DNA of 64,000 bases, taken from assembly GCA_026005175.1 (NCBI GenBank), contig BPKO01000006.1:1-64000 (forward strand). Reading direction: 5' to 3'. This stretch comes from Candidatus Tectimicrobiota bacterium (GTDB lineage Bacteria; Tectomicrobia; Entotheonellia; Entotheonellales; Entotheonellaceae). Both the position numbers and the translations under genes were made by a program. Of this stretch, positions 1-13,262 are shown piece by piece. Under the pieces are notes generated by a model. That model saw nothing but the letters and a program-made list of their open reading frames with translations, was not told the DNA's origin and ran no database searches. Position 1 is the stretch's first letter. Every line of letters begins with the position of its first letter.

Positions 1-547
1 CCCCGGTGGGCGGCGACATCCTCTACGTCGAGGCCACGCGCATGGCGGGCAAGGGCAACCTCACCCTCACCGGCCACCTCGGCGACGTCATGCGCGAAAG
101 CGCCCAGATTGCCTACAGCTACGTGCGCTCCAAGGCGGTGGAGCTGGGCATCGACCCCGAGGTCTTTGCCCATGTCGACTTGCACGTGCACGTGCCGGCC
201 GGGGCCATTCCCAAAGACGGCCCCTCGGCGGGCATTGCCATGGTGACGGCGATCACTAGCCTCTTCACCGGCCGGCCGGTGCGCTCCGTAGGTGGGCATG
301 ACCGGCGAGATCACCCTGCGCGGGCCCGCGTGCTGCCGGTGGGAGGCATCAAGATGAAAGTGCTGGCTGCCCACCGTGCCGGCCTCACCACGGTGATTTT
401 GCCGCGGCGCAACGAGCGCGACCCTCGACGAGCTGCCCGAGGACGTGCGCCAGGCGCTGCGCTTCGTGCTGGTGGAGACCATCGACGAGGCCCTCGACAC
501 CGCCCCTGCCGCCGGTGGCGGTGCCGCTGGCCTCCGAGATGAACTAG
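1..547 (+). CDS. lon: Lon protease, C-terminal proteolytic domain (5' partial, frameshifted)
   Basis: This is the 3' end of an ATP-dependent Lon protease, which degrades misfolded and regulatory proteins in the cytoplasm. The proteolytic domain is recognisable from the first codons (GGDILYVEA). The catalytic-serine motif PKDGPSAG lies near 211-230 and the catalytic-lysine motif GGIKMK near 345-360. Continuity with the family needs frame changes near 290, 323, 420 and 505: the expected [17 protein letters not shown] and [13 protein letters not shown] stretches each lie in a different frame. The last frame ends ASEMN-stop at 547. The AAA+ and N-terminal domains lie outside the window. The frame changes look like base-calling indels rather than decay, since protein-level conservation is intact. 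It converges on the next gene with a 4 bp gap. Confidence 0.85.
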
Positions 548-551
548 GCTG

Positions 552-1295
552 CTACCACACCGCCTGCGGCAGCGGCAGGCCTGCAAAGGCGTCGGCGGGC
601 AGCGGCAGCGACGACGTGATGCCCGCCGCGTCGAGCAGGGCGTAGAGCTGCCGCAGGTGCTGCGCCGCGTGCCACACGGTGCGCTCGAGCAAGTCCGCGG
701 GCCACCTGGCGGCCGTAGTAAGTGTCGACCTCGCCGGCAGTGGCGTGAGGCTGCCCCAGCCATGCCGCCAGCTGCCGGCGCACCCTTTCGCCGTAAGCGG
801 CCAGCGCCTCCCCGCTGTCGAGGGCGCTGGCGGCCGCTCCTCAAACCACGCCTCGGGCAGGTAGCCCTGTTCTTTGGCGTCGCGGTAGCTCAGGGCAACA
901 CGAAAAATATGGTAGCCCAAGTCGCGCAGGGTGCGGTCGCGCCCCGGGGTTTTCACCGCCAGGTGCTGTGGGGGCACCTGGCGCAGGGCCTGGGGGGCCG
1001 CGGCTTCCAGGATGCGGTCGAGGCGGCGGCCCAGTTCCTCCGGCGGCAGCCGCTCCCCCTCGGCGTAAGCCACCCCCAGCAGTTCTGCCAGCGCCTTGGG
1101 ATTCCATCCGTGCACGGCGCGCTCGCCCGCCACCACCGCCGGCACGCGGGGAATACCCAGGCGGGCCAGCTCCTGCATGGCGGCAGGCTGTGCCTCGGTA
1201 TCGATGGCCACAAAGGCAATGCCCCACGACGAAAGCAACTCTTTCGTTTTGGCGCACGAGCTTCAGCCCGGCCGGTAGTAAAGACGCACCGTCAT
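552..1295 (-). CDS. Selenocysteine glutaredoxin fused to a DinB-like domain
   Basis: The reading frame starts at ATG 1295 after a GAGGGGAG ribosome site and runs MTVRLYYRPG, then an in-frame TGA (1265-1263), then SSCAKTKELL. A glutaredoxin/thioredoxin-fold protein would have Cys there, so the motif is U11-S-S-C14. The fold continues with a conserved cis-proline region (IPRVPAVVAGE) to about residue 75. After a linker comes a DinB/YfiT-like helical domain (LGYHIFRVALSYRDA, later WHAAQHLRQLYALLD). Between about 840 and 690 the conserved sequence moves to another frame (QLAAWLGQPHATAGEVDTYYGRQ) and back, so two compensating indels are present. The Sec assignment rests on the position of TGA at the redox site and the hairpin at 1229-1247. 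The function is probably thiol/selenol redox with an unknown partner. The alternative, an internal stop from a TGC-to-TGA error, is less likely given three similar cases in the window. Confidence 0.78.
1229..1247 (-). promoter_or_regulatory. Candidate bacterial SECIS hairpin of the glutaredoxin-DinB gene
   Basis: On the coding strand, 15 nt after the in-frame TGA, ACGAAAG (1247-1241) pairs perfectly with CTTTCGT (1235-1229) around loop AGTTG. The loop begins 23 nt after the TGA and its second base is G. A short stem with G in the first two loop bases at about 16-37 nt from UGA is what bacterial SelB-binding SECIS elements look like. The same spacing recurs at the other three candidate selenoprotein genes here. 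Confidence 0.6.
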
Positions 1296-12720: not shown

Positions 12721-12972
12721 ATGCACCCGGAAGTGGTGGTCTACACGGCAGCCTCGTGAGGGGCCTGCCAGCACGTGAAAGAGTTTCTTTCCGCACACGG
12801 TATTGCCTTTACCCCGCGCGACGTGACCCGGGATCCTGCCGCCCGGCAGGCGCTGCTGGCCCTCACCGGACAGTCGGCCACGCCGGTGGTGGTGGTGGGA
12901 AACGAAGTGGTGGTGGGCTTCGACCGCGGCCGGCTGCAGCGCCTGCTGCGCCTGCACCAGGAGGCTCGCTGA
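12721..12972 (+). CDS. Selenocysteine-containing glutaredoxin-like protein in the mer operon
   Basis: An 83-residue glutaredoxin/NrdH-like fold. The frame reads MHPEVVVYTAAS, TGA (12757-12759), GACQHVKEFLSAHGI, so the active site is U13-G-A-C16 where homologues have CxxC. The remainder is standard: FTPRDVTRDPAARQALLAL, then SATPVVVVGNEVVVGFD with the cis-Pro and the GFD end motif. GGAGAAG precedes the ATG 11 bp after merT, and its stop overlaps the next start (TGATG). A hairpin at 12777-12791 is a candidate SECIS. It probably reduces or carries mercury or mercury-modified thiols in the cytoplasm. Read without recoding it would be a 12-residue peptide, which is implausible in an intact operon. 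Confidence 0.85.
12777..12791 (+). promoter_or_regulatory. Candidate SECIS hairpin of the mer glutaredoxin
   Basis: GAAAGA (12777-12782), loop GTT, TCTTTC (12786-12791). The loop starts 24 nt after the TGA and begins with G, matching the position and loop rule at the other three genes. Confidence 0.55.
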
Positions 12973-13262
12973 TGCGGCTCCTTTGTCCCGGCTGCGGCCA
13001 GGCGCGCGAGCTTGGCCCCGAGGTGCGCCTCGGCGACGAGCTTACCTGCGAGGCCTGCGCCGGCGTGCTGCTGCAGGTAGTCGAAGAAAACGGCGTCTTG
13101 AGCCTGCGCGAGGTGCCGCAGGCTTCCTGCCCGCAGTGCGAAACGCGCCTGCGCCTGCCCGCGGGCGTGCAACCCGGCGACACCCTGGTGCACTGCGGCC
13201 GGCGCCTGGTGGTGACGTACGCCTTTGGCGCTTACGCCCTCGAGCCGCCAGGGCGCTTCTAA
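12972..13262 (+). CDS. Small zinc-ribbon protein of the mer operon
   Basis: 96 residues with three cysteine pairs: CPGCGQ at the N-terminus, TCEAC near residue 28 and SCPQCET near residue 56, plus a lone HCGRR near residue 76. The layout suggests two zinc-ribbon or rubredoxin-like knuckles. It is coupled to the Sec-glutaredoxin gene (start overlaps its stop). I do not recognise a named family. A role in metal (mercury or zinc) binding is inferred from cysteine content and context only. Confidence 0.75.
   Translation: MRLLCPGCGQARELGPEVRLGDELTCEACAGVLLQVVEENGVLSLREVPQASCPQCETRLRLPAGVQPGDTLVHCGRRLVVTYAFGAYALEPPGRF

Follow-up and report, generated by a model that had tools for sequence, protein, structure and literature searches.

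The closest described systems each resemble the protein reported here in part. Its N-terminal half has the same thioredoxin fold and UxxC site as cGrx1, a selenocysteine (Sec) glutaredoxin of Clostridium (Alkaliphilus) oremlandii (PDB: 7c10, 7c12), but cGrx1 is a single-domain protein that lacks the DinB half, and our fusion has both. The second half shares the four-helix DinB fold and an H...HxxxH triad with BstA/YfiT (PDB: 1rxq) and mycothiol S-transferase (PDB: 8f5v); unlike the fusion, these two proteins have neither a redoxin domain nor Sec. In BstA of B. subtilis the triad comprises H67, H160 and H164, and bacillithiol transfer is metal-dependent and EDTA-sensitive (PMC5815605). The bacillithiol and mycothiol used by such transferases cannot, as far as we tested, be made by most of the genomes that carry the fusion. 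Glutaredoxin-like Sec domains are also found in UXX-star (NF041212) and in HUGP/GUXX-star (NF045501), the latter likewise fused, but to a partner that differs from DinB. Glutathione S-transferases, too, begin with a thioredoxin fold and continue into a helical domain, and they stand high in the Foldseek ranking that prompted us to consider them; membership of that group is unsupported by the TM-score of their chains against the fusion model (~0.3, with an rmsd of 4.6–6.5 in the longer alignments), and the helical half fits DinB much better.

We conclude from sequence that the gene belongs to a new, uncatalogued fusion selenoprotein family that is built from two known domain types, because all 73 complete copies carry the Sec codon. 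The best score of the fusion against the curated NCBIfam models NF041212, NF041211, NF047338 and NF045501 is 41.4 bits, compared with a cut-off of 66, and it falls below the cut-offs of all four. NCBIfam release 20 (June 2026) has no entry for a Sec glutaredoxin/DinB fusion, nor is there any DinB fusion among the 119 prokaryotic selenoprotein families inventoried in 2026, which do include glutaredoxin, UXX-star and several fusions (PMC13188914); the original prediction, which did not recognize the fusion as a described selenoprotein family, agrees with both catalogues. Our literature searches did not find the fusion, a mention of which in Haft and Tolstoy 2025 or in Deng et al. 2026 (groundwater genomes) is possible.

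The gene lies near one end of the window, i.e., the whole stretch of 64,000 nucleotides that was analysed (contig BPKO01000006.1 of a Candidatus Tectimicrobiota bacterium). It is encoded on the minus strand, from an ATG at 1295–1293 to a TAG at 552–554 (Table 1), and its product begins MTVRLYYRPG-UGA-SSCAKTKELLSSWG; the UGA sits at the first position of the glutaredoxin UxxC site.

Table 1. Coordinates of the fusion gene and its features in the window
Feature	Position	Strand	Details
Selenoprotein gene, Sec glutaredoxin/DinB fusion	552..1295	(-)	247 codons, UGA = codon 11
UGA codon, putative selenocysteine = residue 11, motif RPGUSSC	1263..1265	(-)	Same codon in 73/73 full-length fusions
Predicted bacterial SECIS hairpin ACGAAAG-AGUUG-CUUUCGU	1229..1247	(-)	16-34 nt past UGA; 7/7 pairs form in window copy
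Glutaredoxin-like (thioredoxin-fold) domain, ~residues 1-63	1106..1295	(-)	PF00462 4.6e-11; model residues 1-76 resemble redoxins, Z 12-14
His129, first DinB metal-site histidine (H128 in reference ortholog L016)	909..911	(-)	Invariant in alignments; 55/55 genes
His209 and His213 (HxxxH), second and third DinB metal-site histidines	657..671	(-)	Invariant in alignments; 55/55 genes
DinB_2 four-helix domain, ~residues 84-247	552..1046	(-)	PF12867 above cut-off in intact orthologs; frame broken within ~690-845

The original prediction had placed two indels near 690–840, and positions 155–200 of a profile built from orthologs indeed match the window copy at 694–831 in another frame, which points to two frame breaks near 690–845. 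Since its middle is out of frame, the DinB domain of this copy stays under the Pfam cut-off; intact orthologs exceed the cut-offs for both Glutaredoxin (PF00462) and DinB_2 (PF12867). Base errors in the assembly, which is 77% complete, are a likely cause of these breaks. The C-terminal part of a Lon-like protease (1–542, plus strand), itself with frame breaks, is convergent with the fusion gene, and further genes in the first 5 kb are also frame-broken, as would fit an assembly rich in indels. At 1311–1370, upstream of the fusion gene, is an inverted repeat with the motif AAGGGGACAGGC(T/G)AC, which has 13 more matches elsewhere in the window (15 occurrences in 64 kb, compared with 0.04 expected); the repeat forms a strong hairpin here (z -5.2) and resembles a REP-type repeat family. 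A second probable selenoprotein gene occupies 12733–12975 of the plus strand: it encodes a stand-alone UXX-star-like glutaredoxin (VVVYTAASUGACQHVKEFLS...) and also ends at a TGA.

Complete fusions number 73, and they are distributed among Tectimicrobiota, two further phyla and SAR202 Chloroflexota; each has TGA at the Sec position and none has Cys (0/73). Within the class to which the window belongs, a fusion with one in-frame TGA was present in all five genomes sampled, which include two of Candidatus Entotheonella (Tectimicrobiota) and one titled Nitrospinota. The smaller of the further phyla has the fusion in 17 of 18 genomes, the larger, which may be Methylomirabilota, has 48 full-length and three partial copies among 95 genomes, and two SAR202/Chloroflexota contigs also carry it. 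The original prediction allowed that no homologue might share the two-domain arrangement, or that corrected reads might reveal a true stop, and it expected Cys versions of the fusion: the arrangement recurs in all 73 complete copies with the same UGA, and the expected Cys versions did not materialize. Profile searches of whole genomes (~500 sampled) yielded no full-length Cys fusion; the open-frame candidates for such an ortholog proved to be stand-alone or differently fused glutaredoxins, one of them joined to an apparent thioredoxin reductase. Stand-alone Cys glutaredoxins do occur. Viral contigs that were searched contain no relative of the fusion. Given that every complete copy has UGA and none has Cys, Sec looks obligatory in this protein.

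Three types of redox motif can be distinguished: R-x-G-U-S-S-C in Tectimicrobiota and the larger further phylum, R-H-G-U-Y-T-C in most of the smaller one, and N/H-P-G-U-F-S-C in SAR202 and in one Tectimicrobiota genome, G001. This genome (L036/L032), which is of the window's own family, has the SAR202-type fusion instead of the type found in its relatives, and a quick tree groups its copy with those of SAR202 at full support, a placement suggestive of horizontal transfer or an old duplication. The larger further phylum also has close DinB-only paralogs of the fusion; those at L121 and L122 and in genomes G455–G459 are very near its C-terminal half, and several genomes have both such a paralog and the fusion.

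The pairing of a UxxC Sec redoxin with a DinB-like domain, as originally predicted, is conserved: Pfam matches Glutaredoxin and DinB_2 in 9/9 representative members. In an alignment of these nine, in which identity to the reference falls to 25%, the invariant positions include Sec11, Cys14, Pro52, Gly63, His128, His207, His211 and Gln214 (the histidines are numbered as in ortholog L016). The presence of the DinB metal-binding histidines, which the original prediction had left to be checked, is borne out: each of the 55 genes read codon by codon (from among the 73 complete fusions) has the second redox Cys and all three histidines of the metal site, the triad being retained even between fusion pairs that are <30% identical, and DinB proteins in the PDB carry His at the aligned triad sites. 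An AlphaFold model of ortholog L062 (pLDDT 87.2, pTM 0.81) recovered both folds. Its residues 1–76 match the redoxins 3zit (Z 13.8, rmsd 1.3 over 76 residues) and NrdH (PDB: 1h75; Z 12.8), and its residues 81–231 match the DinB protein 6iz2 (Z 15.4, rmsd 2.5 over 141 residues); the DinB half also aligns with YfiT/BstA 1rxq (Z 13.8) and with mycothiol S-transferase 8f5v, in which Zn and mycothiol are bound (Z 12.2). By sequence, the nearest solved structure is that of cGrx1 (7c10, E 5.7e-20).

We consider the most likely function, with somewhat better than an even chance of being right, to be that of a coupled enzyme in which a metal and a selenolate would together handle thiols and disulfides. 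The N-terminal glutaredoxin-type domain carries the redox pair Sec11-xx-Cys14, and the C-terminal DinB/YfiT four-helix domain would contribute a divalent metal held by His128, His207 and His211 (L016 numbering). A bound thiol, either substrate or cofactor, may have its pKa lowered by the DinB metal; the Sec selenolate could then act on the product by rapid thiol/disulfide exchange, freeing for example a mixed disulfide or an S-adduct, and Cys14 would resolve the Se-S bond. A single polypeptide would thus combine roles that elsewhere are split between a DinB-type thiol S-transferase and a separate redoxin. Candidate thiol partners are CoA, free cysteine, sulfide or an undescribed thiol.

The choice of these candidates can be set beside a survey of 22 genomes for markers of the known small-thiol pathways: BshC for bacillithiol, MshC for mycothiol, GCS2 for gamma-glutamyl-cysteine (glutathione) and EgtD for ergothioneine. 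BshC is present in four genomes (G004, G402, G409 and G412; no fusion was found in the last two), a GCS2 gene in six (this marker covers the GCS2-type glutathione route only) and EgtD in nine. MshC is above its cut-off in none of the 22; sub-cut-off matches were rejected, because 13 of 14 control genomes have them too, the pattern that ordinary cysteinyl-tRNA synthetase would give. The window's own genome lacks the biosynthesis genes for both bacillithiol and mycothiol. None of the four markers tracks the distribution of the fusion among the 22 genomes, and five fusion genomes (G089, G436, G444, G476 and G486) are without all four, so the small thiol of the DinB half, if there is one, is not consistently any of them. 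Neither did we find a shared operon or a neighbour gene common to all fusion lineages. Neighbours, as named by eye, differ between lineages: in the larger phylum, three genomes have an enoyl-CoA hydratase-like gene that lies 2–21 nt upstream; in the smaller phylum, eight have an M20-type amidohydrolase-like gene ~24–46 nt downstream; and in SAR202 a GMC-oxidoreductase-like gene lies downstream. We count it against the coupled enzyme that no thiol pathway tracks the fusion, that no neighbour is common, and that there is no Cys counterpart to show Sec/Cys exchange. A bolder version, which we put forward tentatively and regard as considerably less probable, is that the fusion represents a new class of enzyme. 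Such a transferase of thiols (or selenols) would depend on Sec and be assisted by the metal, and it would unite conjugation and redox release in one chain; Cys would be unable to replace Sec in it, and its thiol, perhaps an undescribed one, would be none of bacillithiol, mycothiol, glutathione and ergothioneine.

Of the other functions, the better placed, although an unlikely one in our estimation, is that of a plain Sec redoxin: the glutaredoxin half would reduce protein disulfides, and the DinB half would position substrates or hold the protein together, doing no chemistry of its own. The redoxin half is well conserved and nearest to stand-alone glutaredoxins, and stand-alone Sec redoxins coexist with the fusion in these genomes; against this, a mere scaffold would have no need of the histidine triad, which persists in every gene read, including pairs that share <30% identity. 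Less likely again is a role in detoxification, the targets being soft metals, metalloids or alkylating agents: the selenolate would bind the toxic atom or group, which would be removed with the help of the DinB metal site. Metal binding has been suggested for the Sec residues of UXX-star in a 2026 review (PMC13188914), and DinB thiol transferases conjugate electrophiles (PMC5815605), but no recurrent metal-resistance genes stand beside the fusion, the neighbours (enoyl-CoA hydratase, M20-type amidohydrolase, GMC-type oxidoreductase) being lineage-specific. We therefore rank the coupled enzyme first, the plain redoxin second and the detoxifier third.

Each of these functions takes the in-frame UGA at codon 11 as selenocysteine and not as an error, and our reading of the codon sequences is that it is: chance is excluded because the codon is shared by the 73 full-length fusions and because a SECIS-like hairpin is kept beyond synonymous expectation. 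By the known rule for bacterial SECIS elements, the UGA is closely followed by a hairpin whose loop opens with a G. The predicted hairpin has a 7-bp stem, in which nucleotides +16 to +22 after the UGA pair with +28 to +34, and a 5-nt loop that is AGUUG in the window copy and AGUUN or AGCUN in most genes, the apical G being conserved; both its position and its loop fit that rule. Across 47 distinct fusion genes, 303 of 329 stem pairs form. We compared these genes with 500 trials in which the codons were redrawn synonymously from each gene's own usage: a perfect 7-pair stem occurs in 29/47 genes, compared with a mean of 0.65 and a maximum of 5 in the shuffles, and double-sided pair changes (covariation, e.g., A-U to C-G or G-C to A-U) occupy 19 cells, a number reached by 1/500 shuffles, compared with 10.4 in the shuffles. 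Taken as a single sequence, the window hairpin has an ordinary folding energy (z -0.19); support for the hairpin comes from its conservation across genes, not from the folding energy of this one copy. We conclude that the predicted RNA hairpin after the UGA is under selection.

The machinery for Sec insertion is encoded in the window's genome: tRNA-Sec (76.5 bits, TCA anticodon), SelB (391 bits) and SelA (638 bits), the gene for which adjoins selB. In this genome, selA-selB is followed by an acyl-CoA dehydrogenase-like gene (locus L009, C3:364798-369687), and tRNA-Sec lies ~7 kb off. More widely, tRNA-Sec was found in 18/18 genomes checked (fusion carriers and neighbours). The idea of a broken gene, its UGA being either a genuine stop or a mistake of assembly, might draw on the indel errors of the assembly and the two frame breaks of the window copy, yet we give it next to no chance, as it is contradicted by the same UGA in all complete relatives, by the selected hairpin and by the presence of the Sec machinery. 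Equally negligible is the idea that these bacteria have reassigned UGA to one of the ordinary amino acids, since TGA serves as the stop of 23/55 of the very genes concerned, the in-frame UGA is always at the redox Cys position, and tRNA-Sec is present.

Most bacterial selenoprotein families have Cys versions. The present fusion is apparently Sec-only across four groups of uncultured bacteria, and its function therefore seems to require selenium chemistry. Because standard gene calling stops at the UGA or starts past it, the gene is likely to be missed or truncated. DinB thiol transferases form a huge superfamily that is mostly uncharacterised, some of its members having no known function; here they are tied to a defined redox partner in one chain, which may offer a direct handle on the role of many orphan DinB proteins.
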